NCBI GenBank assembly: GCA_033439295.1
Contig: JAVTLE010000014.1
Span: forward strand, 496,001-560,000
Length of the DNA stretch: 64,000 bases
From: Deuterostichococcus epilithicus
Taxonomy: Eukaryota; Chlorophyta; Trebouxiophyceae; Prasiolales; Stichococcaceae
Direction: 5' to 3'
Positions 16,564 through 48,843 of the stretch are shown piece after piece (positions within the stretch are counted from its first letter, which is position 1; every line of letters starts with the position of its first letter). The notes under the pieces were generated by a model that did no database searches, had not been told where the DNA came from, and saw only the letters and a program-made list of their open reading frames with translations. A program made the position numbers and the translations under genes.

Positions 16564-19500
16564 ATGCTGCAAATCACCATGCTGCAAGCGGGGCTGCGCG
16601 CGGCGCCAGCGGCGTCGCCTGCGCGGCAGCATGCTCGGGTTGCAAAGCTGTCAGCAGCCCGAAACAGCTTTCGGAGGGGTCACACGCCCTTCCAGCATGC
16701 GGCTCTGACGGCAGGCAGGCAATCAGCGAGACTGGTTGTCTCTGCAGAGCTGTCGGATAAGGGTCGGCGCTTCAGAGCTGCGGATGTGGAGGTGATTTCG
16801 GGGTCTGGGATGTGCAGTGCCATGCTGCATCTGCGAGCCTTGGCAAACGCAGCCCTGACCCTCACCCTCCTGTGCAACTCCGCAGGTCAAGCGCATCATG
16901 GGGGAAGGCAGCTACGGCGAGTGAAGTGCCTTGTCACAGCTGCAGCCATGTTGTTATGTTTAGCACGCGCGCGCGTGGGGCGTCTTTCACGCATCCCGCT
17001 CTTGCGTTGATTGTGTTCAGCTCACAAGCTTAGTATCCGTCCGGACGCAGGGCAAGTGTTCGAGGTAAGACTTACACGCTCGCAACTCTGTTTCGGGGGG
17101 GACGTGTGCCTGACGCCTGTCAGCTCTTGTCTGCGGCATCCGGCATCCTGTCTTTGCAAACCCCTCAGACAGCAGCCTGACTTGCATAAGCAGCGTGTTT
17201 GACGGCATTTGCATGCCATCCGGCAGTGCACCGAACGTGCACACTCGTATGTATGCAAATGTGGCGGTGGCGGGCAGCAGGGTTTTGCAAGCTGCAGGCT
17301 GCCAGTCCGGGGCTCGGGCCGTGGGAAATGCACCTGCAGCAACACATGGCAGCGTCAGAAGCAGCAGCAGTCGCAGCGACACGGCGTGCAGCCCCCATCA
17401 TAGCCAGTTGCCGTGTGGCCGACGCTCTGAGCTTACTCACCCCTTCGAGAGCGGCGGAGCCACAGCTGAGCCACAGCGAGTGGAACAGCGTCTCCCCCAG
17501 CACCGACGTGCAGGATCCCGTGCCTCAAGTGGTGCTGGGCGGGGCGTAGACGCTGCAGCCGTGCTGGGGCGCAGTGTCGCATTTGACGTCTGCACCCTTC
17601 AGCTGTCAGCGGCAAGCGTGCCTCTGCTTGACGCGCAGGGGGTGCTCCAAACGCGCAACGGCAACGTGCGGGTGGTGCTAAAAAAGGTCAAGGCCCGTGT
17701 GGAGGTGAGCGCAATACAATAATATGCGCCCTTTAGCCTGCACGTCCTGTGGATGCCGCCTGCAGATTCTTTCGACATGTGTTGCATCCCCGGTCTGCGT
17801 GCCTGTCTCGGCATGCATGTTGCGAGTCGGCGCAGGGACACACTGAGGAGCTTGCATGTTGCCTACACGTCACGAACAATGCTGCAGGGCGCGAAGCAGG
17901 TGGGGAAGGTGCGTAACCTGCTGGGGCACAAGCACACATGGGATGGCGCTCTGACCTACGAAATCCGCGACTGTCCTTGACAGCAATGTGTATCTATCGC
18001 AGGGCGCGGAGCAGATGGGGCAGATGGAGCACCTGCTGAACGTGTACGCGACGCGTTCCGCACGCGGCGCCATCGCCGACTTCGTAGGCTACGTGGAGGT
18101 TCGGGAGAGTGAGGCCACCATGCGCCTCACACAGGGCCTGTGGCTGGTGCGCACCCGCTCTTGACATTCCGACAGCGGCCTGGCAGCCCCCGGGCACCGA
18201 ACCACACGGAACGGAGCCCTCTCATGAGTGGGTCGCCACCATGCGCCTCCATGCAGGGCCTGTCGCTGGTGCGTGTCCTGCCGATTTTTGTGGTCTCTCT
18301 GGTCCGGCACTTCCGGGCCCGCCAGTGCAAACATCCACTCCTGGAGGTCTGGGGGATTTCGGAGGCCACCATGCCCCTGACGCGGGGCTTGTGGCTGGTG
18401 AACCCCGCTTCCCGCTGTTGAGGACCTTGCTGAAATGTTTTGGACCCCAAGGCGGGACTGGGCCGCATGAGCTGACAGTCGCGACGGCATGCCCGGCTGT
18501 GAGGAGATTCATGCAACGACGGCGGCTGCGCGGCGGATGTGCCTGGCGAGCGTGGCGGGCGCACATGCAGCTCTGAGCAGCTCGAGAAGCAACTTTAGGG
18601 TCGCCGAAATGTATTGGAGGGCGGCAGTCCCCTTGTGCCCCGCTGGTGTATTGCAGGGTTTAGGTTTGCACAGCATCCGCAGAGGCAGAGGATGACAAGA
18701 GCGACTCGGCACCTGGACGCTCGCAGTCTGGCCGGCCGCCGCATGAACCCTGCAGATATGGCAGTACGACTGCGGCGACACGCTGGCTCTGATCCAGCTG
18801 TCCAGATTCCAGTCGGTTCCAACCGCTGGTCCTCCCCTGCAGATATGGCAGTACGAGGGCAGCAACACGCTGGGCGGCTACCTGAAGCGCCGCGACTGCG
18901 TGCGCGGCCTGGCCGCGGACCTGGGCGTCAGTGAGGCGGCCGCGGTGCCCACCGTCATGAAGCAGATCTTCGAGAACCTCGTGGTGCGATGCTCTGGCAT
19001 GCCGTGCGCCTTTCGACACACCCCACATCCCCTCTGGCGAAGCACCAAGAGCGGGGCTGTGCAGGCGGGGGCAGCGCACCCTCGGAGCCAGTGTAGCCTC
19101 GAACCCAGTGCTGCAGAGCGCAGCGGATCGGCAGGCGGTTTGGCACTGTCATCCAGGATCATCGAGACGGCTTGCGAGACCCGACTTTGGTTTTAAGACC
19201 AGACTCTCCGCCGCATCAAATCTTCAAATTGCCAACTGCATGTCCCAGCACACTGCACCAGGACACTCAACCCCAGATTCATGCTGATTCATCAGACCTC
19301 AAACCCTACAGGCGCTGCATGCGGCGGGGCTGGTGCACCGAGATGTGAAGCCTGCCAACATCATCTTCAGCGAGTCGTCCCGCAAGTTCAAGCTCATAGA
19401 CCTGGGCGCATGCGCTGACCTGCGGAGCGGCACCAACTACATCCCCGACGAGTCCATCCTCGACCCCATGTACTGCCCGCCGGAGCAGGTGATTGCTCTC

Positions 19501-22500
19501 CTCAGCCCTGTTGCCCAGCCACCCTCGCTCACATGCGTTGCCGCCACCTGCGAGCAATCGTCTCACACATCATGTTAACACACACGTGTGGCCCCTCCCC
19601 CCCCCTGCCGGCCCCACACCTCCCTGCCTAGCGACTGCTGCTGGCTCGGCGTCATGCCCCGCTGGGCAAGGCTCTCTGACATCAGTATTGCTTCGTGGAA
19701 GAGAAAGCAGAAGATGAATGGGCCTCCTGCCCTTTGCGCGCAGTACTGCCTCCCGACGGATGCGCCGCACCTCGCCAAGCAGTCGCGTGCGATCGCTGCG
19801 GCGCTGTCGCCCATGGTGTGGGCGACGCACAAGCCAGACCGCTTTGACAGCTTCTCCGCAGGTGCCCTACTCCCGCATGTGTTCTCTCACCTCAGCCATG
19901 CCGTGCGGGCCTCACCGCGAATTGTGCTGTCATGTACTCGTGCTGTGGCTCCGGGCTGAAAGTGTCGCTCCCTGGTCCATTGCTGCCCTGTGTCGATGAG
20001 GCTGTCCTCGAAAAGGCTACAGACGGGCCGCTCACGACCTGCAGCGGCCCTGTGCTGCTTGGATCTCATATGCAGCAAATTTTCACGCTGCCTTGATATG
20101 TTCCATCCCCACTGCCGCGCAGGCCTTGTGCTGATGCAGCTGGCGCTGCCCAAGCTGCGCAGCAGCAACAACCTGAAATCATTTTCGCAGCAGCTGGCTT
20201 CCTGCAATCACGACCTGGATCTGTGGCGCCAGCGGTGCGCCCAATCCTTCATTCCTGTTCCTGTCTTATAACGTTCTGCCGCCGTTCTACATTCACGACC
20301 TGGCGCCAGCATTGCGCATCATCATGCTTTGTTGTTATGCATTCTTTCAGCGTCCTATGACCAATTTCCTTTCCTTCATTCCCTTTTCCTCCGTCGCTCC
20401 CATGCCTGCCTACTTCTCCTGTCATTTTGACATGTTATGTCGTAGCCGGACTGATGACGCCAGCAAAATGCGAATATGCACGGCTGCCATGGTTTTTTCA
20501 ATCTCAGATCCCTTGATGTTACGTCTCTGTGGTAGCACCTGAAACCCGCATCAGTCAAGGCCTGCACCGCACCGCTGTTACGCAGCTTGCGTGCGTGCAT
20601 GGCGCGCAACCAGAAACTCCCTTCCTTCCAAGCGGTCGATCGGGCTGCGGGCCGGCACACAGACCTCCAGCTCTGTGGTGTTGCCCGGGATGTCCTTCCT
20701 AATGGCATTATTCCGCGTCAAGCAGGCGCCGCCGCCAGCAGGAGAGGATACCTTGGCTTAGTCATTGGAGCGGGAGGACGACACTAAGGGATCCGTTCGA
20801 CAGCTGGACCCCTCCTCAACAGCCCGACTCGAGGCCCTGAAACGTGTCCGCAGGCACCCGCCGCCGGCGCGGGAAACAGACATGCTGGATGCCGACGGCG
20901 GCGCGGGCTGGGAGCTGGCGCGCACGCTGCTGCGGCCGCGCGCCGTCATCGCGGACCGCGCCACCGGCGCAGTGGAGTTTGTGCGCGGCGGCGTGCAGCG
21001 TGTCTCCATCCGCGCTGCGCTGCGCCACCCCTTCATCCGGAAGGTGCTGGTCAAATAGTGCCCTCCGATGGTGCCCTCCGGTACTGCCCTCCGGTAGCTG
21101 CAACTCCTGTGCCAGGGTCTGGCTGCGCTGCGGGCGCAGGGGGTGGGGTTGTATCTCAGGCTTGATTCTTCCGCTTCAGTCTTAGGCTTCAGTCGCTGCA
21201 GAGTGCTTCTGGAGCAGGATGCGGGTCCATCTTGCGCCTTCCCCAGAACAGGCGCGGCTGCGACCCGGCACCTCGACCCCAGCCTCTGTGGTCCACGTCG
21301 GCTGTGACGCTGGCATAACGAATGGCATAACGACAAGCCTAACGCTACCCATGGGTATGCGCTTTTCAATTCGAGGTGCAGGCAGAGGCGGATACGCGGC
21401 AGCAGGGCAGCCGTGGCAGATCCGCAAGTGACGGCCCTTCATCTGTGCGCCTGCGATCCGGCTTGACAATGGTGCAAACATCCGCCTCATGCCGTGCGCC
21501 ATGAAACTCCAGTTTCCTCCAATCCCTGAACCCCTAAACCACAGGGGGCGGCGGAGGTGCGGCAGCAGGGCGGCCTTAGCGGCTGGTTCGGGCGCGTTGC
21601 GGGAAGCTTCGACTCTGAAGACGAGGGCACGGGCACGCGGCGCGGCGGCACCGAGCCCGCCGGAGCCGTCAGCGGCCGCCCCGGCTGGGGCAGCGGCCTG
21701 GTCACAGCCATCTCTGGCAGGTGGACTGGCGAATTTATTTGACGAAAGTCCTGAATAGTGCCTGCCACAGACCTAAAGTGCTGCAGCTGTGTCAACACTC
21801 ATCACATGTGGCGCGTCTGCCAGGGGCGTGCTGAGCTGCGGCGGCCGTGGGCGGCGCTCGTGTCGGACGCTTGCATGCATGCGGATGGTTTTTCCGAGTG
21901 AGGTGTTTGACAGCAACTGGGTGACTGACAGCTATTTGGACGAAATGATCAAACGTGCGCTGACACCTGCTCTGCAGCCCCGTTGGCAGTCGGTGGGCCA
22001 GCGGCAGCGACACCGTGTCGGCAGTTGCCGCCAACGTGGCGGCGTCCAAGCCGCCGGGCAGCGCCACCCGCGACGGCAGCGGCTCCGGCAGCAACTATGT
22101 GTCCTCGGGCGAGGCCAAGCGCGCGGCCATCCGCATCGCCCGTGGCGGCAGCTCCGGTGCGGCCGCCAGCTGCCACATGAGTGGCAGGTTTCAATCTGGA
22201 ATCTGGGTCGTTGTGAATATCGTGCATGCTGGCACGGCGCCAGCTTGCAAGATGCACCAGACAGGTTGCAAACAGCTTGCATTGGGGGGCGTCTTATGGG
22301 AGGCACCTTCCCCTCGATGGCCCTGGAAATGCTATGGACTTCCACACATCCTGGCTCGGCCGCGAACATCCAAGTCGCCTCCTGTAAAGCTGCTATGCGG
22401 ATGTTCCATGGCCATCCTGCCTTGTCATCGGCTTTCCTACCTGCTCGCAACCCGCACTGCGAAGCCGGCCGCAATGTCACTGCCCTGAGCGGCATCGGGA

Positions 22501-25500
22501 CACAGCCAGCGGTCTTTCTGACCATTCCCCTGAAAGCTAGGGTTTGAAAACCTTGAACCCTGAACACCCTGCGCGGCAGGGTCGTCCTCCAAGCGGGCAG
22601 GCAGCAGCTCAAGCCGCGGCTGGGGCTCGGGATCTGTGTCTGCCTCGGCCGATGAGGGGCCGCCGCCCAAGCCCAAGCGGCGGGGCATCGGCGCCGCGCT
22701 GTTCTCGGCGATCATGGGCCCCCGGAGGAAGGCAGCGGCGGCAAAGCCGGCGGCGGCGGCGCCCGCGCCGCCTGCGGCGGTCGGCACAGGTTGGCGCTCT
22801 TCTTGGCCAGCAGCTGCTTGCCGCATCCAAAAGAGGAGAGATTGTGCACAGGCCGCTGTCACTGGCCGCAGCAGACCCTGAAGAGTGATCGCCCCTCATG
22901 GTGCAGGTGCTGCAGAGTGGCAGCCACCATTGGCAGTGAGAAAGGGTGTCTGTCATGAAGCAAATGACAAAGACGCAGTGGAGGCGGGGATCAGCCAGCA
23001 AGTGGCAGCGTCAAGCAGCCCGAAAGGCCTTTCTTTTCAAGCTCCTTCGGCAACACACTTCCAAACCGCATCGTGTCCATGCTGCAGGCTCGGTGGCAGC
23101 GGGGGAGCAGCCGGCAAGCGGCAGCACCAAGCAGCTCGCGGGGCTGGGGCGTGCCGTGGGCATCTGGTCCCGCGCCTCGGGCAAGCTTTTCAGCCTGGAG
23201 GAGCGCATCAAGGACCAGGTGGGTTACGGCTCCCGGAGTCTAGGGTTTGACAGGATATGACAACACTTCTACATGGCCGTCGGCAGTTGGTTCTGCGCTC
23301 CCCAGCAAGCTGTCCAGCCTGGGGGAATGCATCGGGGACCTGGCGCATTATTGCTCTCGGAGTCTAGGGTCCGACAGGGTTGACAGGATGTGGCAAGACT
23401 TTCTACTTCCGTCGTCCGGTCCCGCGCCTCGGGCAAGCTGATCATGTTGGAAGAACACATCCAGGACCGGGTGGAGTTCCTGCTAGGGTTTGGAGATCAG
23501 TTGAGACGGGATAAGAACACGTTCGCTGATGCACAGCCTGGGGATGCTAGTTCACCTCAAGGTAACAGCATGCAAGACGGTCAGCGGCGCAGGCGGCGCC
23601 CGCGGGCTCTACAGCTGGCGCACGGTCCTGTGCCGTTGACAGCCTGCAAATTCCCCTCCAGATCAGTCAAGGTCTGAGACCGGGGCTCCACAGTTCAGCA
23701 TTCAGGCAGCGCATTGCTGGTTCTGGCCTGAGCACCCATGCGGGCGCTGGTGGGCTCGCTGATGCAGGTCAACAAGCGTGGCCAACCCCTTCAAATGGCC
23801 ACGCTTGTCTGCTGTTCGAGTGGCCATCCAGCACTTGTGCAGCAGGTCGCCGAGCACAGTAACAATGGAGTGGCAGGCAACGAGCAAGGAAAGCTGCAAT
23901 CGTCTGCGGAGGGGTGACAGCGTTCTTGGAGCTCCTGGACGGACTGACCCGTTCACTTCATCGAAAGCCAGCAGGCTAGCTGCAGCCCAGCGTTTGGCTT
24001 GAGCGGTGGAGGCGCTGGAGGCGCCCCTGCAGCAGAGCACCCCAGAGCCTTAGCTTCAGTCGCAAACCCTGAACATGTCAGTTCCGCTGTAAACCCTGCG
24101 CATTTCCAAATCGCAGGCGGAGGCAACCAGGCGGCAGACGCGGATGGTGAAAGTCCTGGAGGCGCGGGTCCGCCAGGGCGACGCCGCCCCCGAGGTGCTG
24201 GCCTCCGAGCAGTCGGCGCTGGCGTCAATGACGGAGCAGCTGACGAACATGACCTCTGAGTTCCGGACGCTGTATCGCGGGTGAGACAGAGCTGAGGGCG
24301 TGGGACGTAGCGGAACCTCTTATCGTGTGCCTATGCTGCCGGCAGGCTTCAGCTTGGCATGCTGTAGCGCCTCTGCACGGAATGCAGTGTATCGTGTGTA
24401 TTGCTTATGGCGCAAATCTAACAGCGGCCGCCGCAGCAGCCAAGGCAAAACGACAATGGTCCCACTGGGCGCACCGTCTGATGCTGCTGCCGGAGACACA
24501 CCTCGGCCCGCCTGAGCGCCGCTCGTCCTGGTCTGTCGCAGGGTGCTGGGCGGAATCACGGGCCGGAAGAAGCGTGTGACCACCCGCACGCTGCCGCGGA
24601 AGAAGGCGCTGCGCCGAGCCATCGTCGAGGGCCAGACCCCGGAGCAGGCGGCGGCCATGCAGGCAGCCCAGGTGCGACGCATGCTCTCGCACAGCAGGCT
24701 GCACTGGTGTCCTGCGCTGTTGACGCCTTTGGCTCTGTGGGATGAGGGGGCTCTGCAGTGCAGATGTCTTGGGGTCCCCAAGCCGACCTGCGAGCGATGC
24801 CTCCCGATGGTTTCCTTCCCGTTCCTCTTCACCCAGGCGGCGGCGCAGCCGGTAAGCGCGGCGGTCACAGACGCCGCGGCGGCGGCCGAGCTGGCCGNCG
24901 GCGGCGACGCCGGCGGGGCAGCTGACGCGGCTGCGGACGCTGCGGACGACGTCGAGAGCAGCGTCACTGCAGCCGCCAACAAGGCCGTAGCAGCAGGGCT
25001 GGTGGGATTGCCCTGGCTTTGACTCTGCCTCATGTCAGTGCTGTGACTGCATTTTCAGTCATGCCACAGGTTCAAGTGCACGCTGCTTGTACTGTCACTC
25101 CAGTGCCTGTGTGACATACAGTGCACATGCAGTGACTTCCGCCCTGCTACGAACCACCAAGTGTCGAGCTTGTCCTGCTGCAAAATGTTGATGGCCCTTT
25201 CAACCGCATAACATGCTGAGGTGGGGTTCCGTCCTTGGCCCGCAGCGTTTCACGGGGCAGGCACTGGGCATCGCGACCGGCATGGTGGCATCCATAGAGG
25301 GGCAGGCAGAGGCGGCACGGGCACGCGGCCGCGAGTCCGCCGCGGCGCAGGTGAGCAGCGCTCAGGGTTTAGGGTTCAGGGCGAGCCGCGCTGCATCCGC
25401 GACATGAGGCACCAGCTGCACTGCTGCTTGTGGGTCTGCTGCTCCGCTAGGACAGCTGGTTGCCGCGCTGTCATCCAGCGCAAAAGGCAGGCTGCACGTG

Positions 25501-28500
25501 CCTGCTGTCCCCCCCCCGAGAACATTCGGCTGGATGAACCGTGCAACTCTCAAGCTGTGCTCGTATATCCCCTTCTGGCAGGTCAAGGCAGCAGCGGAGG
25601 CGAGCCGCACTATGAGCGAGCAGCGGCGCGGCGCCTCCCCGGTGGCCGTCTCTCGCTCTGGCACCACCATCAACGTGCGGCCCACCACCAGCCCACAGTC
25701 CACAGATCCGCCCGCCATGCTTGTGCTGTGCAGGCACAAATATAGTCTCCCTGGAGTCCCCAGCCTGAAGGGCCGGACTGGGGGTGGTCTCAAAACCACT
25801 TCCTGCTTCCGGACTGAACGTTACTTAATGCCGCCGGTCGGCCGCCTTGTTGCTGCAGACAGCGTGCAACTTCGGCAGCCTGTTGAAGGCCTAGTGATCT
25901 GATGTCGGGCCATCTGATGTCCGTTTCACTCGTCGCCGACAGTGTCCGTCATGTGGGACGGGACCACCAAGGCGGCGGTGTGTCTCACCGCTGCCCGCCA
26001 AAACAGCACCCTGGTCACAGCACCTCTCCCCCAGGGCTGCAGCAGCAGCGGCACACGCAGGCAGCAACACGTGCCCCCGGGGCGTGTACGGGCAGAATCA
26101 CAAGCTGCAGATAATGCAGTCACAGTGCAGCCGGCACACCAGATTCCAGTCAATAATGCCTGTCTGAGGCACAGCCCAATGCCCTCACGAGAACCAAGAC
26201 TCAAATCCTGCTCTTCCTGGCAGGCGGACACGCATCGCAGTTGCCACCGCGTGCTTTCTTGGAGTCGCTGCGGGTTTGATCATTAAACCGCGTCTGATTG
26301 GCAACCCCTTATGAAGCCTTCTGAATTGTTGTTCCCTTTCAGGCGGACTCGGACCTGCGGGTGCTGTCACGCGCATACATGGAGATGCTGCGGGACCTCA
26401 GCCCGCCGCTCAGCACGGCCAGCCGCTGGTCTGCCACTCGCGAGCGAATCCGCACCGACCCGCGCTACACGGTGGGTCCTTAAACAGAAATCAAACCTCT
26501 GGAGGTCATCTGCAGCCTCTAGGGGCAGGTGCAGGACTGTTGACACTGGAGAGGCACAAGCAGATCGCTGGCGGCAACCAGCCGCTGGCTTTTCCCAAGT
26601 GCTGCAGACATGGTGCCGCATGCAGCGATGTGCGGCGGCCGGCGCAGCGGCCGGTGCATCCATCTGACTTTCCAGACTCCCGCCTTTCAGATGCTATATC
26701 CATTGCTGCCGCTTGCCTTGCAGGCGGTGCCGGCAGCGCAGCGGGAGAAGCTGTTCAGCACCTACATGCAGGCGGTACAGCAGCTGCAGGTGCAGGCTCA
26801 GGAGCGCGCCGCTCGAGCCCGCGCCGGCTTCCAGGTGAGAGGCAACCGCACAACAGCACCATGTCATGCAAGTTTTTTGAATGCAAATGAGGCATGCATG
26901 GCGGACGGCACAAATGAGATCTGCCCTCACATAGCGCCCATGCTGGGGCCACAGCCGCCGCGAGCCCGCCACACGCAGCCTGCATAGCCCTTATGACCTG
27001 GCCAGGCTGGTCCACACCTGACCTGACGGCCTTCACCTGACGCATGCGGGCAGCGAGGGTGCAGGGCACCGACACTGGGAAGCCAGCCACAGGCCCGGCT
27101 GCGCCTTTTCCACACCTTTCCAACACGCACACCAGAACTCTCGAACTACAGACCCCAGCAAACCCTGAACCCTGCACAGGAGCTGCTGCGGGAGGCCAAC
27201 ATCGGCGCGGAGAGCACCTGGGAGGACGCGCGGCCGATCCTGGAGCTCAACCCCACCTTTGTGGCGCTGCCGGAGGCGGAGCGCCGCCTGGCGTTCGACG
27301 CCGCCGTCGCCGAGAAGCGGCGCCGCGCTGCCGCCAGCAGCACTGGGGACACCGCATTCCGGCAGCTGCTGGTGGAGCTGTCGCCGCCCATCACAGCCGC
27401 ATCGACCTGGGCCTCCGTCAAGCGCGCGGTGAGGACTCTTGCGTTCCCTTCCTTCTCCTCGTCGTCATTGATTTTCCCCCCTTCCGCCAGCAGCACGGGG
27501 GGACACCGCCTGCCGGCAGCTGCTCGTTGCGGTGTCGCCGCGCGTCACAGCATCCCCAACCTGGGCTCCCGCCAAGAGCGCAGTGAGGGCTTTCTCCACA
27601 GGGTTTAGGGTTTAGTGTTTCGAGCACGAGGTGTAGACAGTGTGCCGAGAGGTGGCTGCCAGGGGGCGCAGCCAGCACGCTCGGGAGCAGTAGATCCCGG
27701 CAGCGGGTCCTGGACTCGGCATGAGGGCAGCCACTGTCCCAGCGGTCGATCATGCCGCTTGGCGCCGCTGGCGCCGCTCCTGCCACCCTGCTGGCTGCTG
27801 TCAGACATCCTGCAGCATGTTGCAGCATGTGCTGCCAGGGCGCCAGCCAGGTCCAGGGCCCAGAGAGTCTCACAACGCACTGCCCGAGCCACAGCCGCTC
27901 TGCACAGCATGCGGTCTGCGTCCACAGCCCGCAAGGGCTGACTAGGCTGCGTGTCACAACTCGGTCAGGTGAACATTTACAAAAAATAATCCAGTGAAAA
28001 CATCAAATCCTGAGGAACTGCACCTTTGCGAATGCGCAGGCGTGGGTGGACTCGCGCTTTGACGCCGTCAGCGAGGACCGGCGGCGGGAGCTGTTTGAGA
28101 CATACCGGGCCATGGTGGCGGAGGAAGCCGCTCCGGCGCCCGCGGCAGCGCAGGTGCGCCTGGACCCTGTAGGCTGTTCTCGCTTCTTGTGGCTAATGTG
28201 CTGCAGGGTGGGACGCCTCAGGACCACGGCAAATGGCGCACATCAGTGTGTTTTCCATCTGTTGGGCCCTTGTGGACCACCCTGCAGCATTCATAAGCAT
28301 GTGTGCATGCATATGCAAGGCGATTGTGGCAGCATCCTGCGGCACCCAAAACGGCGCAACGTCACTCTGCGTGCATCCCGGTCTCAAGGTCGGCAGTGCA
28401 CCACCGCCACCAGCTGCTCCTCGGATTGGCTGCTCCTGACGATCCCGTCTTGACAATCCTCAGACCCACGGCGGCGGCGGCAGCAGCGGCGGCGGCGGCT

Positions 28501-28801
28501 CGACCGACCTGGCCACCCTTGCAGAGGAGCGGCAGCGCATTGCCGCGCAGCTGGCGCAGCTGGATGCCCAGGAGCGGGCGCTGCGGAAAAAGGTGGGCTT
28601 CTTTACTACTGCGCAATTCTCAAAGCAGTACCTGCATGGACACATCGCCAGGGCGCCTGTCGGCAGGCGTGGTGGCCGCAGTCTTGTCGACCTGCCCGCC
28701 CCTCAAGACTGCCTGCTTCGGTGGATGCCTGCTGACTGTGCGGGCTGGCATGCATCCAGGAGTCGATCAACAGCAACGGCGTGCTGCCGGACGCTGAGTG
28801 A
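16564..28801 (+). CDS. STN7/STN8-family thylakoid kinase fused in frame to an FF-domain region
   Basis: Best single model: 25 exons, about 1127 aa. Residues 1-76 are a transit-peptide-like exon (16564-16791). Residues 77-407 are a kinase of the Stt7/STN7-STN8 family. Residues about 408-870 are a low-complexity linker. Residues about 871-1071 carry three FF domains, followed by a Gly-rich, coiled-coil tail. Linker and FF exons: 21545-21720, 21990-22156, 22580-22789, 23088-23218, 24117-24280, 24542-24671, 24837-25001, 25246-25350, 25582-25722, 26343-26471, 26724-26834, 27180-27428, 28040-28153, 28464-28592, 28760-28801. All junction phases agree and the total is divisible by three. If the donor at 21044 is not used, the kinase ends at a TAG (21056-21058) as a 411-aa enzyme. 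The FF part would then need its own start, yet its first 140 or so codons contain no ATG. The fusion is inference; both modules are well supported. Confidence 0.65.
17051..17064 (+). other. 14-nt microexon after a GC-AG intron
   Basis: The exon ggcaagtgttcgag is flanked by gcag and gtaaga. It gives the expected glycine-loop sequence SYGQVFEG only if the preceding exon ends at 16916, just before GCGAGT, that is, at a GC donor. The GT donor three bases downstream (16920) would shift the frame and destroy the conserved QVFEGVL. This makes the upstream intron a GC-AG intron. Confidence 0.75.
17880..18880 (+). repeat. Decayed tandem copies of kinase exon ends inside introns
   Basis: The true exon starts at 18003 with ggcgcggagcagatgggg; a copy lies in the intron at about 17887 (ggcgcgaagcaggtgggg). 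The true exon end near 18115-18150 (gccaccatgcgcctcac then ggcctgtggctg and GT) recurs at about 18237-18275 and 18365-18402, each with the equivalent of the donor. The acceptor side at 18838-18855 (gcagatatggcagtacga) has a copy at about 18754. All copies are diverged and some carry stops. Confidence 0.75.
21059..21100 (+). repeat. Short tandem repeat after the alternative kinase stop
   Basis: Three imperfect copies of a ten- to fourteen-base unit built around tgccctccgRt, directly after the TAG that would end a kinase-only product. Confidence 0.6.
23219..23480 (+). repeat. Two decayed copies of the exon 23088-23218 3' end plus intron start
   Basis: The genuine exon end encodes SRASGKLFSLEERIKDQ followed by GT. 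Related sequences follow at about 23290-23345 and about 23410-23475; the second still reads SRASGKLIMLEEHIQD. Between copies the intron segment is also repeated (gagtctagggt, tgacaggat, then a tctac-ccgtcg stretch). The repeat unit therefore spans the exon-intron junction and is roughly 120-140 bp. Confidence 0.8.
25365..25376 (+). repeat. Telomere-type word in intron near a donor
   Basis: gggtttagggtt begins 15 bases after the donor at 25351. It is one of many such words in this window. Confidence 0.7.
27331..27592 (+). repeat. Duplicated exon end and donor in the FF region
   Basis: The end of exon 27180-27428 (from ccgccagcagcactggggac to the donor gtgagg) is repeated at about 27486-27588, beginning ccgccagcagcacgggggga and ending gcgcagtgaggg. 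The copy shows substitutions and small indels. It lies wholly in the following intron and is followed at 27600 by telomere-type words. Confidence 0.85.
27600..27615 (+). repeat. Telomere-type repeat in intron
   Basis: agggtttagggtttag, slightly more than two TTTAGGG units, directly after the duplicated donor copy described at 27486-27588. Confidence 0.75.
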
Positions 28802-30092
28802 GGCACCCCCCGCGTCCTGCTGTGAGCTGGGAGCGGGCATGCTGCTGAGCCAGGCTGCCTGCCGCTGCACCTCGCTGGCACCACCAGGCCAGTGCAAGGC
28901 GCTGCCCTGCGATGCGCACCAGAAACGACGATGCTTCGCTGGAGGGCCGCAAGAGAGGGGGGAGATGCAAAGAGACTGATGCGTCAGAGATCGCACGTTG
29001 CATCTCGAACGAGGCCCGGCTGCTGCGGCGCACGAGAGTCCGCATTGCAAGAGTCTGACCACAGATTTTGTGCATGATGATCGTTTCGTATATTTTTGCG
29101 CCGACGCCTGTGCCAGGCCACCCCGTGAACTAGTCACGTTGGCCGGCAATGTGGACGGCGTGTGTACTCCAACTTTTGAGTTTCGTATTGGCAAGTTGAT
29201 TGGCCTAAGTCGGCGAATTTTTCTCCACTGGCTGTAACTCCCATTATTTGTTGCTACGCTGTGGCTCTTGCAGTCCCAGCCCATGCGATGATGATTCGCT
29301 TGGTGCCGCTCCTACAGTTGTCGCCCTGTAGAGTTTCGGCCCTGCTGCTTGTGGTAGCTTTCAATACAAGTATTCTTTGAATTCAGATGTGTGGCTGCCC
29401 ACACATCTGAAGGCATACAAACATGCACAACACCAGGACAAATACCATCATTCTGATGAATCGTTTTGGCAGCACGACCAGTCCTGACCAAGTTCAGTGA
29501 CAAGCAGACATAATCTCGAGACAAGTGAAACATGCACGGGCGGCGCTTTCTGCGCCTAGTTCACGCCCGGCGGTCAGTGTGCACGGTCCTGATGCGCCAT
29601 TAGCCGCAAGTTCAATGCATGCTCTGTGGGTGTGGACCCGAAGCATCGTTGCCACACACATGCGGCCTGAACACGTGAAGGTGAGTTGTGCTCTGCGTCA
29701 CAGCGTCTGAACCCGGCGGACCCGAACGCCGCCACCTGAGACGCTGCCAAGTGTCTGAGGCTCTTCTCGCTCCGCCTCACAGTCGGATGTCGTTATGCCA
29801 TGGTGACGCTGTGTGACATGCGCCGGAAAGGGCGGTGGGCACTGCGCCGCGCAGTCAGACGGAGCAGCGGGCGCAGCTGGCTGATGGGTGGAAGTGGCGG
29901 CCCCCATGCACCTGCGGAAGTCAGCGACCTCTGTCGTCAGGCTTGAGGGTTCGAATTCCATCTGCACCGCTGCAGCACCTCGAGAGGCGCGGTGGAGACA
30001 GGCTGACCTGCACGAAAGCAAACCACCCCCACCCGCTCCTTGTTTTTCCCCACGTGCTGGATGTTGTTGACACGTTCGTGCATCAACTGTCC
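28802..30092. other. Convergent intergenic region
   Basis: About 1.3 kb between the stop of the kinase-FF gene (plus) and the stop of the glutamine synthetase homologue (minus), so both 3' ends lie here. The stretch at about 29.05-29.5 kb is visibly more AT-rich than the genes. I see no coding exon, tRNA or mobile element. Confidence 0.5.
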
Positions 30093-33000
30093 TCATCGTG
30101 AAATGTGCACCTGCTGTCCCACGGCAGCCGCCGCAGCGCCCGGCGACGCCGGCGCGCTGGTGGCCTCGCTGAAGGAGCCGCCGGCGCCAAAGTTGTCCGA
30201 CGACTCCCCCACCGCGAGGTAGGCGGGCGGCTGCGGCGGCGTGTCGGGCGCAAAGGCCTCCAGCACGTCCATCTCGTCGAGGATCGCCGAGGACAGCGCC
30301 TCCGACTCCGACTGCTCCGGCTGGCCAGCCTGCAGGATGGCATGATGCAATGCAAGTTTGAGCATGTACAGGCCGGTAGAAGAGCCTAGTGTTGGGGCTG
30401 AGGCGTTTGGAGGTCAAATCATGCAGTGTGGCAGCTCCATATCGTCCGCCGACGTCAGCGGCGGGCGCCGCCCCGCACCGCCGGCGCCCGTCGGTCCCGT
30501 CGGTGGCTGCAGAGCATCACGCCGGCATCTCCGAGTGTCGCAGCTCCAGTGCAGAGTGTCGTTTGTTTTCTGGCAGCACCCACCTGGCCGGCGGACGGCA
30601 GCGGCAGCCCCCCTGTGGTGGCCACCAGCATCATGGAGGCAAGGTACGGGTCCATGTTGGCAGCAGGGCGGCGGTCCTCGTACCCCCCGCAACGCTCCAG
30701 CAGCAAGCCGTGCGGAATGCTGACGCTGGCGGCGCGGTTCTCCAGGCCCCAGGTGAAGGCCATAAGGGCGCTGGTCCTGCGGCAAGGCAAGGGGGGATCC
30801 GGTGAGGAACTGAGGGGTTGGCTGCAGACCGACACCGCTGTCCCTGCTGGGTCAGCTTGCACAAGGTATGCAAACCTTGTGCATGCCAGCATGCCAGTGG
30901 CGCAGGCCGCTGCGGGGCGGCCCCAGGAGCCGATGCCTGCATGCAGATTGTGCATGCACATGCGTAGGAATGCGGCACCTGCGCCCCCGAGTTCATCTGA
31001 TTGCAGCAGATCCCAGGCAACAGGCGGCAGGACGGAGAGCACACTTATCGCGGCCGGTGAGACGGCGGTCGTTGCCGGAGCCATACAGCATGATGTGCTG
31101 CATGTGGGCGGCCGACAGGGCGCGAACGTGCGCCTGAACGGCAAACCAGCCCTTGCCAGGCTCCCGGGTGTCGCGTGTGCTGAAAGTTATGGGCGCACCG
31201 CTGCCACTCCAGCTACCAGGCACCTGTCAGATGGAGCAGAATTTGTCAATAGTACATCAAACATGCAGTCCGGTCTTCTCGAATGTACTATGGAGGAGCA
31301 AACTTGCTGGAGCGCAGTGGCGGCAATGCAAATCAGATGCACCGGAGGACGCACCGTGCGCACGACAGAATATGCAGCATTGTGAGGCTGTGGCATGGAG
31401 CCTGGCGCGCTGACACGCTTCCAGGGTGCAGCGGCGCAGAAAGGAGGGTATCAGCCATTCCCAGCTTGGGTTCGCATGCACAGAGGAAGGGCGCACTGGT
31501 TTGGGGTCCAGGCTGGCGATCAGTTGAAAGTGCTCCGACAGGCGATGCAGGATGAAGCGGCTCATCCACAGCTGGTCGGCAAACTCGATGCCGGAGCAGG
31601 GCCCTATGCTGTACGACCACTGCCCAGGCACTGACTCCGCCTGGCAGCCTGCACAGTCGAAATGACGCGTGAGGTCGAGCTATGGTCACGTCCTTGGCAG
31701 GCACATGCAGCAGCGGCCCGGCCATTGCTGGCCATCTGCTGCAGGGGCCGAGGCAGCTGCAGAACTTCCACTTGCAGCACCACGGGAATCGCTTTGCCGC
31801 AGCTCGACTGCAAGAGTAAAAACCCCACGATGTAAGCCTCGAGACGGCTCAGCACGGTCTCACCTGTGATGTCGATGCCGGCGTGCAAGCATGCCCGCAT
31901 GTGGGCTTCGCTGAACTGCCGCCCCGCAACGTGCGCATGTCCCACATTGCAGTAGGAGCCTGGTGACGGCGGCTGGTTCTGCGCCGGCGGCCATTTCCGT
32001 TCTGACGCCTGCTTGCTTGCCTCCTGCTGTGGCCAGCCTGCGGACGCATGTATCGCGAGGGTCTCAACGACTCGAAGCATGACTGCAGCATTCGTTCAGG
32101 CGGTGGCAGGTTATGGGCGCTGGAGCCGGGCACGGCATCATCACGTCACGTAGCGGTGCAGCTTGGCGAGTTCTCTGGCAATAGCGCACCCAGGGGCCAG
32201 CGCGTCGCCGGGTCCAGCAGCGTGTACTGCTGCTCGACCGCGAAGCTGGGGTCGACGCCGGCGGCGGCCGCCAGCACCGCAGCGGCGGGCGCGCGGTTGT
32301 TCGACGCATGCGGCGCTGATCCGCCAATGCTGCCATGGTCCTGCACGCTCGGCGGCGTGTGCACATCGCACAGCACCAGGACGTGGGTGCCCGCGCGGAA
32401 GGGGTCCGGGTAGACAGCCCGTGGCTTGAGGCACAGCACCGAGGTGCCGACGGTCGCCTGTTGCAGCACGGGCAAGATTGGTGTCAAGCCGGGACACGGC
32501 TAGCACGCTCGGGGGACAACAGACTACTTGCGAGTGTCTCACACAAGTCGGAAGACGGATCAGGCCCCCGGCAGCGTGTGCTCGTGTGCAGCAAAGTCCC
32601 AGCTGGAGCTCAGCAGGCAGGCTAGTCTGTCCGGCGCTCCGCCAGAGTTTCGGTCCAGCATTGCGTTGCTTCAGACTGCGGTGCCCAGTTGGTCTGACCG
32701 TGTGCGTCGCTACACAGCCGCGAAGATGCCCTTTGCTTGGCCCGCAAGATAGGGCCTTCGCACCGCCCCACGTGAGACACCGGGTGCACAGGAGCAAGAG
32801 CGGTCCGCGTGCGTTTGGCCGCGCATCATGCGACTCAGGCCGGAGCTGGGCCTGAAGGGGCGGCGCGCAAGGCGGACAGACTCATGGCAACCGGCGTGAC
32901 GTTGTTTTCATGGTACAGACCATGACGTTGGGAGAAAACCTCGGTGCAAGCTGTTGCTGGCAGCGCGCTCGTCCGACACGGCCGGAGACAGGATGACCGA

Positions 33001-33386
33001 ATCTAGACGCTAAGAGAGTAAGGGCATGGTGGCGAGGACGGGCGCCCGCGGCAGGCGCCGCGTGGCTTGCCCTGCCGTGCCCAGGGTGACAGCGCGATTC
33101 AGTCAGCCGGGGGGCCCACCTGGTTGGTGAGCGAACCGTCGTATGTCCAAACCGGGCACTCCTCCGGCGTGGTTGGCACAAAGTCCAGCACCCGGGTCCT
33201 GGACCTCAGGTCGCCGCCGGTGCCGCCCAGGAAAACATACTCGGCCATGGTCTTGCCCCGCAGGTTGCAACGCTGCTCGAGGGGGCTGCTGGCTGGGACC
33301 GCCGAATTGCATGGCGTTGCATGCACCTGGTCCAATCTGGCCGGCATGGCGAGCCCCGCCACGGCCTCACACTCGCCGCTGACCAT
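30093..33386 (-). CDS. Glutamine synthetase (type II) homologue, probable pseudoenzyme
   Basis: Exons, minus strand: 33386-33120, 32457-32190, 32001-31864, 31648-31497, 31223-31045, 30776-30584, 30329-30093. Phases close and give 477 aa. Fold landmarks run in family order: AEYVFLGGTGGDLRSRTR, VWTYDGSLTNQ, DPFRAGTHVLVLCD, VEQQYTLLD, HMRACLHAGIDITG, PGQWSYSIGPCSGI, SRFILHRLSEHF, DPKP, REPGKGW, RRLTG, NRAASVSIP, and YEDRRPAANMDP. Many residues that bind metal or catalyse in type II enzymes are changed. EQE is EQQ (Gln166), QWEF is QWSY (Ser236), the HTNFST histidine is Pro286, TGxHET is TGRDKT (Asp334, Lys335), and IRIPR is VSIPH. The C-terminus adds about 70 Ala/Ser/Glu-rich residues. Classic ammonia-to-glutamine activity is unlikely. 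The start may lie upstream, because the frame stays open to 33515. Confidence 0.85.
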
Positions 33387-34436
33387 GTGGGTTGGACTGA
33401 GCTCACTGGGCGCTATCACCGTGGGACCGGAACGCTGTTGTACAGCGACCCAGCAGCTGCAGAATGTTGATAGGTTTTGAACGGTCACCAATTGGTCTGA
33501 GTGACGCTGCTGCACACAGACTACACGCCAGACCTCCAGCGGGCCAAGGGGCCACTTGGCCTCTGCGTCCCCATCGTGAAGCGGCTAGATTCCGCACACA
33601 GGGTTTAGGGGGACTGCACTTGAACGCACACTGTTCCGCGTCCGGATGAGCTGACGGTGCTGCTCATCCTTGCCTCACCCAAGTCGTGTCGCTGAGCTGC
33701 CGACGTATGATCTAGCAGAGCGCATTACTGTCTGTCGAGGGCTGCGTGCTACTGTTTGCCGGGCATCGATTCTCTCGAGTGGCCCAGCTGGTCCCAGCAA
33801 CGTGCAGCAGTCATTGTTGATGCCACAACATGCGTTGACAGACACATCTGTACCGTCAGCCTCTCGCCTGTTCTGATTCTGACGTCCAGGAAGTTCAACG
33901 TCCGCGCTGAGTTTGGCTCGTTCCGGTAGGAGCTTGAAACCTGCTGTCTTTCAAAGCGCAGTGCAGCTGTGGACGACTCATACCTCACCTAATACTGCGC
34001 TCAATCAGCCTAGGCTGCCATCTGGTTTTACTCGTGCACCATAACAGGTCGCTGGAAATCTGCGCCACTGCCAGCCAACCAGCCAGCCATGCACGGCTGC
34101 CTTCACTGCAACTTCACGGCTGGGAGCACATTCGCGTCACATGCAGCAAAGCGCTGCATCGCGAGACCGGCGATCAGTGACCTCGAGCGCTCGACCAGCG
34201 GTGGCGGAGTCGCGACCGGTGCAGCCGCCAGGTGCGAACTGCACCTGTGAAAGCACGTCGCCGCCGCTGCGCAGCCGTGAGCTGAGCTTCATCGAGGCCC
34301 AGCAATACATCCAAGACTGGCAAGCAGGGTGACACAGCCAGGAACACGTTCGCTGAGGTCTCGCACGGTCCTCAGCAGGCGGCTGTGTGCGCATTGCCCG
34401 TCGCCGGCGCACCCACCAGCCCCACGGCCACGCAGC
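33387..34436. promoter_or_regulatory. Divergent intergenic region
   Basis: About 1.05 kb between the minus-strand glutamine synthetase homologue and the plus-strand epimerase-like gene; it should contain both promoters. The first 130 bases remain open in the synthetase frame and may be coding. A telomere-type word (gggtttaggg) lies at 33601. I see no defined binding site. Confidence 0.45.
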
Positions 34437-37387
34437 ATGCTGCCGCCGTGCGCCGCCGCGGAGGTGGCCGCCGCTGCCGCGGGGACGTCGTCGTCCGCGA
34501 AAGCGCCCACCAGCAACGACCTGCTGATCGTGGGTCCCGGAGTCCTCGGCAGCTACCTGGGCAGGCTGTGGCTGGATGAGCACCCGGGCGCAACGGTGAT
34601 CGGCCAGACCAACGGCACCTCCAACCACGACAGGTGAGCCGTCAGCGCCGATGCAACGGTGTGCATCTCCTAAGGGTAGATCAGATGGAAGCTGGGCACG
34701 GCCTGTCTTGGCGTGCACTGGCGCAAAGTCCCGCCAAACTCAGCCCCCAATGGTGTGAGGACGTTCGAGCCCACGCTCAGCATTTCAGCAGCAGCAGCAA
34801 TCTGCGGGTGGCGGGCGGCAGCTGCACACATGCCGGCCGTTTCAGGCCCAAACAGCTCAAACCCCATCAGCAGTGATGGATGGACCAGCAGCCTTGCCGC
34901 GCCGGCGGTGTGCCTGCGCTGCACAATCCCCCACGTGGCGTCTGCAGGCTGAAGGCGCTGGGGCTGCAGCCGCGCACGAAGGCGGAGGCTGGCGACCGCA
35001 AGTTTCCCTTTGTGGCGTTCTGCGCGCCGCCGTCCGGCAGTGAGGACTACGCTGAGGAGGTGCGCCTGTGCGGAAACGAGTGGGCGCCTTGAAAGGGGGG
35101 TCTGGCATGGAGGCAGCCTGGGCCTTGGAGCATTGGTCTTAGTCTGGCCCCAGAGCAATGGAAGTCAGGCCCCGCAGCAATGCAGCGGAGCAGCCTTGCC
35201 TGTTGCTCTGCTTTGCAGCAGCAGGTCATCCGCAGCAGCAGCTCGTCCGCTACGCCACAGTTTCGGTATAATCTGGTGCTGGGGGCACTGGCAGCTGCCA
35301 ACCTCTGCGCCGTCGGCGGCACAGACTTCGGCAATTGAGTCCACCGAGCAGGGGCACAAATGCAAAACCTACCACGCAAACTCGATCCGAGCGCCTGCCC
35401 CCGGCCTCGCACACAGATCCGGGCGGCGGCGCAGCTGTGGGATGGCAGCGGCAGCCTGCTGTTCACCGGCAGCGCGGGCATCTTCACCGTCGACGACGGC
35501 TCGCAGTGCAATGAGGACTCGCCCATTGCGCCGCTCGGCGTCTCGGAGCGCAACGACAGGTGCCGCCCAGGGTCTATTTCCTATCTCTTTGTTTGGTTTC
35601 GCTCCTTTAGGTTATCTATCGATAAAATCTGCTCGACAGTGGACGTACTATAGCGGATGCTGCAAACTTTGGCGTCATGCCACCATCAATGGCGGCCTTG
35701 CTGATTTGGCGGCCTTGGCGAATCAGCGGCCTTGGCAGCCTCCAATCGAACGGCTACAGATGCACACGGCTGTGACAATGCGACATTGGCTGCACACCAT
35801 TTCGCAGGCTCATCAACGGCGAGCGGGCGGTGCTGGAGCTGGGCGGCAATGTCGTGCGCCTTGTGGGCCTCTACCACTCCGGCAGGTGTTATTCTCTTGT
35901 GCCGAAACACACTATTGGTCCCTTGCTTGTCACACATGCTCTCTGTTGGCCTGGATCCTGGGTCGCTGCTGCGATTGCACGGCCGGCACTGCCACAGAGG
36001 TGGCATGCAGAGGTGGCGTTGCATGAGCCTTGCCACCGGCGCACGTACGCATTGCGGCAGGGTCACAGCTTCTGCAGCTCAACACAGAAGCGACACGGGT
36101 GGACGGTCCTGCAGGCTCGCAAGCTGTGGGCCTCCTCTGGCGCAGGGGCGCGCACACGTTCTTCCTGAAGACTGGGGAGGTGCCGCGGTGGGGCGGCTAC
36201 ACCGTGAACCTCATACACTACGAGGATGCGGCAAGCTTGTCAGCTGCGGTGAGTCATCGGCGGCGAGAGCTTCTTGTGACGAGCTTGACGCCCTTGTGGT
36301 GCCGGGTGCAGCCAATAGCAATGCATTTCACGGTCCTTGCCCTGCCAGGCGCAGGATGCCTCGGACTGCCTGGAGGCGGCCCCGTTGCTGCAGGCAGCCG
36401 ACCGCCCCGCTGCAGCGACACCTGTGAGCTCGGATCTCGAGGGAGACACGTAGGAGTGTTGGCGTACTCAGCCGCCCGCTCCCATGCCCGACACGCACAC
36501 TCTTTGGGTGCCGCTGCAGATCCTGCGGGGCGATGGCTCGGACAGCTACTATCGCAGCAAAGTGTTCCTGGGCACCGACGGCTCCCCCGTCACCTTCACG
36601 GTGCGGCGCGCGCATGTGCTGGTTTTTCTGACCCTGGCACCGTGGCGCGCGCCATGGCCTGGACGACCTCCTCAGCCATGGGAGCCGGCGCAGAGGATGC
36701 TCGCGCAGAGGACGCGCGCTACGCATGGTCGCAGGCTGTCAGTAAGATGTGGACAGGGCAGAATATCCCCCTGCAGCGCCGGACCGCACGCCTTGGTGTC
36801 CAGACTCCCGATGCATGCCAGATGCGATGCCGCGCCAAGACTTCAGTCGACCTGCTACCATGTTGGCTTCTCGCGGATCCCAGGACATGATGGCAGCGGT
36901 CGAGGCCAGCGGCGCCTACGAGGGCCACGCGCAGTTCACTGGTCCGAAGGGCGACAGCAAGGGGAAGCTAGTCAGCAACTGCCGCACGCTGCGCACGCTC
37001 GGCTGGCGCCCCAAATACAGTGAGCTTTTCCTCGCTACTACGACGCATTTCGTGCTCTGAGGGCTTGAGAGTGCGGTTCTGCCATGAATGCTGACTTTCG
37101 ACAGCCATGGCCGAGCTGCTTTGCAGCGGCATGAGCTGCGGCTCACGGCCGGCGTGCCCGCTGCTGAACCTCGCCTGCTCGCACTGCGTGTTGCTGCATC
37201 TCAATGAGCGGCACTGCTGTTTTCATCTGGTTCGGCAGCGGCAAGCTTGCAAGGAGACAATAAGACTATCAGCTTGAAAATATATGTTTTTTCTGGGCCC
37301 GCAGGCAGCTTCGAGGACTTTATGGCTGCTTGCGCGGATGACTGGTATCGGCAGCAGGCGGGGGTTGAAGCGGTGGTGGGCAGCTAG
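34437..37387 (+). CDS. NAD(P)-binding Rossmann-fold, epimerase-like (extended SDR) protein
   Basis: Exons: 34437-34633, 34948-35059, 35417-35559, 35808-35885, 36146-36248, 36520-36600, 36884-37019, 37305-37387. All phases agree, giving 310 aa. The dinucleotide-binding motif is LLIVGPGVLGSYLG (Gly33, Gly35, Gly38) at the end of the first beta strand, followed by the domain pieces FVAFCAPPSG, SLLFTGSAGIFTVDDG, VVRLVGLYHSGRG, TVNLIHYEDAA and TLGWRPKYSSFEDF. The order matches NAD-dependent epimerase/dehydratase-like proteins related to bacterial YeeZ and plant plastid homologues. I see no clear YxxxK pair, so catalysis may be lost or divergent. The first 25 residues are Ala/Ser-rich and could be a transit peptide. 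Substrate unknown. The ATG at 34437 was chosen because the open frame above it lacks an ATG. Confidence 0.85.
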
Positions 37388-38610
37388 CATGCGTGATGCG
37401 GGGCTTCGGAGCTGGTGTGCAGTGTCGACGTGTGAGGCCACCACGCGCATGCGTGGGTCGTGGAGAGGCTTGCAAGGCACTGCGCTTGCTGTGGCAACGG
37501 CATGGCGGAGGGGTGTGCTTGTGTAGAGGGAGTGTGGGCGTCAGCATGACGGCGGTGCGGTGACGTGGATGCGAGTTGCCCCAGCGCAGGGCAGTGCCTG
37601 CCACGGCCCGGCTGCGCTGGATGGCATTCGGTGGCAATGCTGCAGTCTTGCAGGAGCATGGCGCTCTGTTTGCCGCACGCAGCCAGGATGGCCAGCAATC
37701 ATGACGTACTGGAATCCTTGAGCGATACCGCAGACTGCGGCACAGCTGTTCGCAGATCTAGCTGCCTGGCTAGCCAGGTAGCTAACTTCAGTAAAGTGGG
37801 CGTTGAGCCTGGCCTGCAGCTGGCACCTGCTGCCACACGAACCGCGGCTCATTTGCACTAAACATTATTTGCTGCCAGCTTCATTTGCGACTGCAGATCA
37901 TGTGTTAAGGGTTTTACGTATGGCTACGTACATACAGCGTTGTGCCACGGCCCCAAGAAGTCCACGACATTGTGCAGCCAGCTGCCCGCAGTCTGCGGCG
38001 GCGGCCAGCAGCAGCATCACCAGCAGCTCAGGCAATGCAGCGGCGCTGCCAGGTGATGCCTCCATCCTGGTTGCGCCATGATGCGCAATGATTCTAGACG
38101 CAAATAAAGTCGCAGCTTATAACAGATGCCGAGGTCGTGCTCCTCGCCAAATGCACTGCTGCTGGCGAGATGCGGACTCTCCATATGGTTAATGGGAACA
38201 ACCCTCCGACAGGTTGGTGGGGTTCTTCGCCACTTTAGGGTCGCCACTATAGGGAGGCCAGGGCCCGTTCAGGAGGGAAAGACTTCCTCCTGAAGTCTGT
38301 CTTCATCAGACATCTGATCTGAAAGAGCCCGCCGAGGTATATCTCGACGGACGGTGCCCCCGCCTCCGTCGTTTACCCCGCCATGCAAGAAGCGGCTGCT
38401 GTCAGCCCGAACAGCCACAACAACGCATACATTTACTGCAATTGAAATGCATATGCTACCTTGCTCTCGACGCCGCATGAGAAGTAAGACGAAAGTACCC
38501 TGGGACGTCTCAGAAACGCACTGCTATTTTCCACCGCTGCTCATCAACGGCTTGTGCATCGGTCCAATCGCCGACCACTGTTATGTGCTGTTTTAGGAAT
38601 CCTCCGAACC
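37388..38610. other. Intergenic region
   Basis: About 1.2 kb between two plus-strand genes, holding the 3' end of the epimerase-like gene and the promoter of DBR1. Part of it (38.1-38.6 kb) is less GC-rich. A short minus-strand frame at 38478-38269 has no recognisable content. Nothing else supported. Confidence 0.45.
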
Positions 38611-48815: not shown

Positions 48816-48843
48816 CTTGATATTAATCCAAAAGGAAGGTCGA

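Follow-up and report, generated by a model that had tools for sequence, protein, structure and literature searches.

Can a kinase of the STN type and a set of FF domains belong to one protein, or does a locus that seems to join them hold two neighbouring genes? Two kinases, STN7 and STN8, are established in the thylakoid, and FF domains are otherwise known from nuclear RNA-processing proteins. The question is raised by a stretch of 64,000 nucleotides (hereafter, the window; G000:C12:496001-560000) in the genome of the green alga Deuterostichococcus epilithicus (46.8 Mb in 21 contigs). Almost certainly, one gene encodes one protein here, with the predicted order presequence, third-class STN-type kinase, coiled-coil hairpin, conserved GLxFTGxAL stretch, three tandem FF domains and C-terminal coiled coil. 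The gene model, rebuilt from the sequence using the relative P0001 as a guide, has 25 exons on the plus strand (16564-28801) in a single frame to one stop, and its product has 1126-1139 amino acids. Exons 1-10 (16564-21043) carry the presequence and the complete kinase domain and exons 11-25 (21545-28801) the tail; as the first-pass annotation had stated, all 15 tail exons hold phase to the lone stop at 28799-28801.

The first-pass annotation had read the kinase and the FF domains as one gene, joined in phase by a donor at 21044 and an acceptor at 21545. Both sites, a GT donor and the exon start, are present in phase 0/0. The in-phase join alone is weak evidence, because 18 of the 108 GT-AG pairs tested around the junction likewise stay open. 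The fusion was settled because P0001 aligns through the junction and other relatives are fused as well. P0001 was the sole protein returned by a BLASTP search with tail residues 225-732 (identity 52%, query coverage 96%; scoring was limited to the 7,990 candidates with the most words in common). It is an uninterrupted open reading frame of 1102 amino acids on a 4143-base JGI contig, holds both the kinase and the FF domains, and aligns end to end with the window protein at 62% identity. Its alignment crosses the junction, with HPFIRK-GAAEVRQQGGLSGWFGR in the window protein and HPFIR-AAEPQRGLGGLFGR in P0001. An intron-free reading frame of such length on a short contig suggests that the contig is an assembled transcript. 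Both modules were also matched by Pfam: the kinase (Pkinase, E 1.9e-15) and, in three stretches, the FF domain (PF01846, E 3.8e-29, 100.9 bits vs the curated cut-off of 22).

A profile of the window protein and P0001 (E up to 0.001, 7,993 candidates scored) gave 197 relatives. Of the 120 listed, 63 hold the kinase and PF01846 (precomputed matches) in one chain, which is the domain order that the first-pass annotation had proposed to look for in other chlorophytes. The fusion is not confined to this alga but present across core Chlorophyta, including a gene of Chlamydomonas reinhardtii (CHLRE_16g688526v5, 1518 amino acids). Other fused relatives belong to Volvox, Gonium, Raphidocelis, Coccomyxa, Myrmecia, Trebouxia, Parachlorella, Ostreobium, Bryopsis, a pedinophyte and, from the record codes Botrbrau1 and Ulvmu1, Botryococcus and Ulva; one (P0024) is a TRINITY transcript. 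The Coccomyxa record is entitled "probable serine/threonine-protein kinase STN8, chloroplastic at N-terminal half". Among the 89 relatives from a kinase-only search, in which a length limit leaves out most fused proteins, PF01846 was precomputed for none.

Of the solved structures, that of the Stt7 homologue MsStt7d (4IX3, E 4e-44) matches the kinase best, and the 50 matches listed in each of the whole-model structure searches were all kinases. The catalytic motifs HRD..K..N and DLG are intact in the window kinase and invariant in 56/56, from which we infer that the kinase is active. The STN7/STN8 signature noted earlier stands as far as the STN type is concerned, but the kinase is neither STN7 nor STN8. 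The same genome carries an Stt7/STN7-type locus on C9 (L028, G000:C9:739000-745500), which contains LPCSSMNCGDAIYR (CxxxxC) and MSTQTP. A further STN locus lies on C11 (L027, G000:C11:521500-528500) and has a transmembrane-like stretch and DFGAAVDMCTGINFNP. The C9 label is based on CxxxxC and the tree. The C11 locus and Riccia P0147 are presumably STN8, a tentative label based on an unverified Arabidopsis STN8 sequence that joins the pair at 100/93 and is 56% identical to P0147.

A first kinase tree had 75 rows (72 of 202 proteins picked by hand, the window, C9 and C11), and a second one 72 rows, after P0127, P0135 and P0149 were dropped as long or unsettled branches. Three long-branch rows (P0151, P0169 and P0170) shifted between the two trees, and their placement is unsure. 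In the 72-row tree, the seven STN7-type rows are grouped with support 100/99, the C11-Riccia pair, the only two rows of STN8 type, splits off at 100/92, and the window kinase falls into a third class of 63 rows (99/94). This class is composed of streptophytes (6 rows, 99/97), prasinophytes (7 rows, 99/96), core chlorophytes (48 rows, 99/97) and two rows whose place is unsure (P0078 and P0083). Within it, the window kinase falls into a group of 9 rows (96/93) that also holds Myrmecia, Trebouxia, Coccomyxa and Botryococcus, a placement that points to a trebouxiophyte alga. Orthology to STN7 or STN8 was rejected on the basis of the trees and of the genome's own C9 and C11 loci, and by sequence the window kinase is a member of a third STN class.

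The tail of the window protein shares its features with the FF-bearing branch of core chlorophytes, where a third-class kinase is combined with a coiled-coil module and an FF array. The best solved-structure match of the array by sequence is the FF of TCERG1 (3HFH, E 1.1e-11). The Pfam scan found no WW domain in the window protein. Close to each of the two other FF loci of this genome, on C1 and C7, there is a WW match (the C7 one below cut-off), and the C7 locus scores with a profile of the window's FF array. Either TCERG1 or Prp40 could be the source of the array, TCERG1 being the best sequence match. Our own FF profile, which matches 74 of 203 sequences and misses the pedinophyte P0063 that Pfam finds, places FF in 35 of the 72 tree rows, all within the core-chlorophyte branch. 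Twelve rows of this branch gave no FF match: P0061 (Gymnochlora), P0080 and P0084 (chlorarachniophytes by record names), P0065 (its kinase at zero distance from P0080), three short models, P0035, P0071 and the three long-branch rows. Parsimony requires eight changes of FF state on the 72-row tree, which we explain by a single gain, subsequent losses and truncated gene models. The coiled-coil module was matched in 5/7 prasinophyte rows (e.g., Micromonas, 4e-8, and Pyramimonas, 1e-4, not P0088 or P0090) and in no streptophyte row below E 0.01, a level that no shuffled control reached either; these comparisons date it as older than the FF tail.

Where could such a protein work? The first 40 amino acids contain no acidic residue, and the presequence, without Cys or transmembrane-like stretch, is rich in Arg and Ala and fits either organelle. 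An N-terminal transmembrane anchor is described as a feature of STN7 and STN8 in the passages retrieved from PMC3525998. In the window protein no such anchor is seen, the top 19-residue hydropathy before the kinase being 0.64, and the lumenal CxxxxC pair seen in the genome's own C9 locus has no counterpart, as the 81 residues before the P-loop contain no Cys. The description "thylakoid state-transition-type" in the first-pass annotation therefore overreaches. Without the membrane anchor and the lumenal redox cysteines of Stt7/STN7, the kinase is most probably organellar and either soluble or peripheral.

As for the organelle, we consider the chloroplast rather likely. STN7 and STN8 act on thylakoids, and a plastid-cleavage-like [VI]x[AC] motif lies near the presequence end in 14/28 relatives (shuffle mean 8.4), a weak indication. 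The moss STN-like kinase Pp3c10_6850, uncharacterised and probably of the third class, is predicted to be chloroplastic in the retrieved part of a 2022 paper (PMC9434285). Action in mitochondria is rather unlikely; it would be compatible with the Arg/Ala-rich presequence, and it follows a 2012 prediction, in the retrieved passages of PMC3525998, of a mitochondrial location for the additional STN duplicates that C. reinhardtii, O. lucimarinus and S. moellendorffii have and higher plants lack. We infer that these duplicates, which the 2012 passages mention with no gene numbers, and the moss kinase are third-class proteins.

Taken together, the explanation we favour, with somewhat more confidence than doubt, is a soluble or peripheral organellar third-class STN kinase with a coiled-coil/FF recruitment tail. 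The presequence would direct import into an organelle, probably the chloroplast, the coiled coils would form an oligomer, and the FF array would bind client or adaptor peptides. It is an even question whether the tail, rather than a membrane anchor, would bring the kinase to its substrates in this way. In other proteins, acidic, aromatic or phosphorylated peptides are ligands of FF domains. Directly past the kinase, the linker has an acidic stretch (SFDSEDEG in the window protein, SMDGEDD in P0001), and self-binding of this linker by the FF array is a speculation. The evolutionary scenario, to which we give about equal weight for and against, is that at the base of core Chlorophyta a nuclear-type FF array was fused once to an anchor-less third STN kinase and moved into an organelle as a substrate-docking array.

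Several points weigh against this explanation, besides the 2012 prediction. The [VI]x[AC] count of 14 was reached by 21/1000 shuffles with related rows counted separately, so that the test is weak; P0073 has five acidic residues in its first 40; the C. reinhardtii tail includes an Ala-rich stretch with hydropathy 1.80. Database titles name the third-class proteins P0009 and P0089 STN8 and P0122 SNT7. No ligand of an FF domain in an organelle is known to us. For this organism the gene model is read from genomic DNA and relatives alone, and some splice sites are weak or picked for fit (the GC donor at 16917, CTT/GTGCTG at 25722 and the three options in 21978-22180).

It is improbable that, besides the full protein, the gene makes a short tail-less kinase through retention of the junction intron (stop at 21056). 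The retained intron would begin in frame and give VLVK-stop, a clean end just past the kinase domain, and short relatives do exist, such as P0121 (553 amino acids) and P0122 (591 amino acids), but both of these stop within the coiled-coil piece and resemble truncated gene models, and the junction intron has no TGTAA. Even less probable is a nuclear or dual location, with the FF array contacting RNA polymerase II or partners in the spliceosome in the manner of TCERG1 or Prp40: the array is like TCERG1 by sequence (E 1.1e-11), whereas the protein has no WW domain, unlike the surroundings of the C1 and C7 FF loci, and its N-terminus is presequence-like.

TGTAA is the chlorophyte poly(A) signal; inside the gene it occurs only at 22383 and 24088, both intronic, and past the final stop first at 29233. 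Two adjacent genes, of which the first would code for the kinase and stop at the TAG (21056-21058) and the second, with the FF domains, would start downstream, are hardly credible: the in-frame stop 12 bases past the donor, the 18 in-phase joins among 108 and the TGTAA at 22383 are in their favour, but P0001 and 62 other listed relatives hold both domains in one chain (on which ground we rejected this reading), the P0001 similarity continues across the junction, no TGTAA lies between the TAG at 21056 and 21545, and no ATG is found among the first 125 or 163 downstream codons (the first in-frame one being codon 126 with exon 12 ending at 22180, or 164 with the end at 22156), close to the roughly 140 ATG-free codons previously claimed.

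In the main texts of open-licence PMC papers, among the results listed, we found no study of the third class in any alga, no mention of FF domains on an STN kinase and no paper on CHLRE_16g688526 (Cre16.g688526) or MsStt7d. The wording "FF domain" is absent from PMC3525998. Judging from the parts retrieved of two papers, the third class seems to have been noted with conflicting predictions (mitochondrion and chloroplast), and the FF tail seems to be new. Spread across green algae and early land plants, the class is a concrete candidate for phosphorylation events with no known kinase; the moss STN-like kinase has been raised as a possible agent of basal LHCB6 phosphorylation (PMC9434285, retrieved part). 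The occurrence of the fused kinase in the model alga C. reinhardtii opens the class to tests there, and FF domains in an unexpected compartment could make their ligand rules testable away from polymerase II. If the docking-array reading is true, it would add a third branch of thylakoid-type phosphorylation signalling. It would also be, to our knowledge, the first organellar use of FF domains.

The features of the gene are collected in the table below. Introns are GT-AG throughout, save for the GC donor at 16917, which is needed and restores GSYGQVFEG. By comparison with P0001, an initial exon 4 start at 17603 was replaced by 17639 and the exon 6 end at 18980 by 18983. The exon from 21978 has three in-phase donors, with ends at 22141, 22156 or 22180 giving 1126, 1131 or 1139 amino acids.

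Table. Features of the kinase-FF gene in window coordinates.
Feature	Position	Strand	Content
Exon 1	16564..16791	+	Start codon, presequence, kinase start
Exon 2	16886..16916	+	P-loop (GEGSYG), GC donor at 16917; P0001 alignment
Exon 3	17051..17064	+	14 nucleotides, QVFE
Exon 4	17639..17704	+	VVLKK lysine strand; start fitted to P0001
Exon 5	18003..18146	+	Kinase N-lobe
Exon 6	18843..18983	+	Kinase hinge region; decayed copy of exon start upstream at 18748
Exon 7	19312..19488	+	HRDVKPAN catalytic loop, DLG, activation segment LRSGTNYIPDESILDPMYCPPEQ
Exon 8	19744..19861	+	Kinase C-lobe
Exon 9	20123..20234	+	Kinase C-lobe
Exon 10	20854..21043	+	Kinase end (..ALRHPFIRK); read-through gives VLVK, TAG at 21056-21058
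Junction intron, kinase to tail	21044..21544	+	GT donor 21044, phase 0; P0001 continuous across
Exon 11	21545..21720	+	First tail exon, GLSGWFGRVAGSFDSEDEG
Exon 12	21978..22180	+	Linker; donor uncertain (22141, 22156 or 22180)
Exon 13	22580..22789	+	Linker with GAALFSAIMGPRRK; near-identical in P0001
Exon 14	23088..23218	+	Coiled-coil module start (GIWSRASGKLFSLEERIKDQ)
Exon 15	24117..24280	+	Remainder of coiled-coil module
Exon 16	24542..24671	+	VLGGITGRKKR linker
Exon 17	24837..25001	+	Ala-rich linker; one undetermined base (N) of the assembly
Exon 18	25246..25350	+	Conserved stretch RFTGQALGIATGMVASIE
Exon 19	25582..25722	+	Linker; weak donor CTT/GTGCTG
Exon 20	26343..26471	+	FF domain 1, first part
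Exon 21	26724..26834	+	FF domain 1, second part, and linker helix
Exon 22	27180..27428	+	FF domain 2 and first part of FF domain 3
Exon 23	28040..28153	+	FF domain 3, second part
Exon 24	28464..28592	+	C-terminal coiled coil, from P0001 alignment; profile of that piece gave no window match
Exon 25	28760..28801	+	C-terminus; TGA stop 28799-28801
TGTAA, candidate poly(A) signal	29233..29237	+	About 430 nucleotides past stop

Several introns of the gene, the junction intron included, contain decayed copies of the adjoining exon borders with their splice site (36-93 nucleotides, 63-90% identical), at 17884-18038, 18111-18400, 18748-18873, 20224-20336, 21379-21580, 23163-23474 and 27345-27591. A run at 24 nucleotides/1500 bp, filtered by eye, gave eight repeat families of at least 34 nucleotides within 700 bp, two of them overlapping; at 34 nucleotides/700 bp the C11 locus had one, and neither window positions 30000-42000 nor the STN7-type locus on C9 had any. 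This looks like tandem duplication enlarging or creating introns. The copy of the exon 6 acceptor at 18748-18842 is open in frame to the true exon 6, so that use of this copy as acceptor could lengthen the kinase by 29 residues. Elsewhere in the window, at 44257-49521, GC content drops to 0.45-0.52 and a minus-strand retrotransposon-like element is found, with a 1132-amino-acid reading frame like Ty3-type protease, reverse transcriptase, RNase H and integrase beside gag-like frames (read by eye).

Among known systems, Stt7/STN7 is like the window protein in kinase fold and sequence, the closest solved structure being that of an Stt7 homologue. The window protein differs in having neither the N-terminal membrane segment nor the lumenal CxxxxC, in the letters of its activation segment and in its long coiled-coil/FF tail, and a separate Stt7-type locus is present on C9. 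STN8/Stl1 belongs to the same kinase family and lends its name to third-class proteins in database titles, but the genome's own C11 locus, with its tentative STN8 label, pairs with Riccia P0147 outside the third class. The third-class kinases of mosses, liverworts, Klebsormidium and Selaginella, with which Physcomitrella Pp3c10_6850 probably belongs, share the clade of the window kinase, but have no FF match, no coiled-coil match below E 0.01 and, in the rows examined, transmembrane-like stretches in the N-terminus and tail. Those of prasinophytes (Micromonas, Pyramimonas) share the clade and, in five of seven tree rows, the coiled-coil module, but not the FF domains. Finally, TCERG1 and Prp40 have tandem FF domains as well, whereas in the window protein the array is without WW domains and is joined to a kinase with a presequence.

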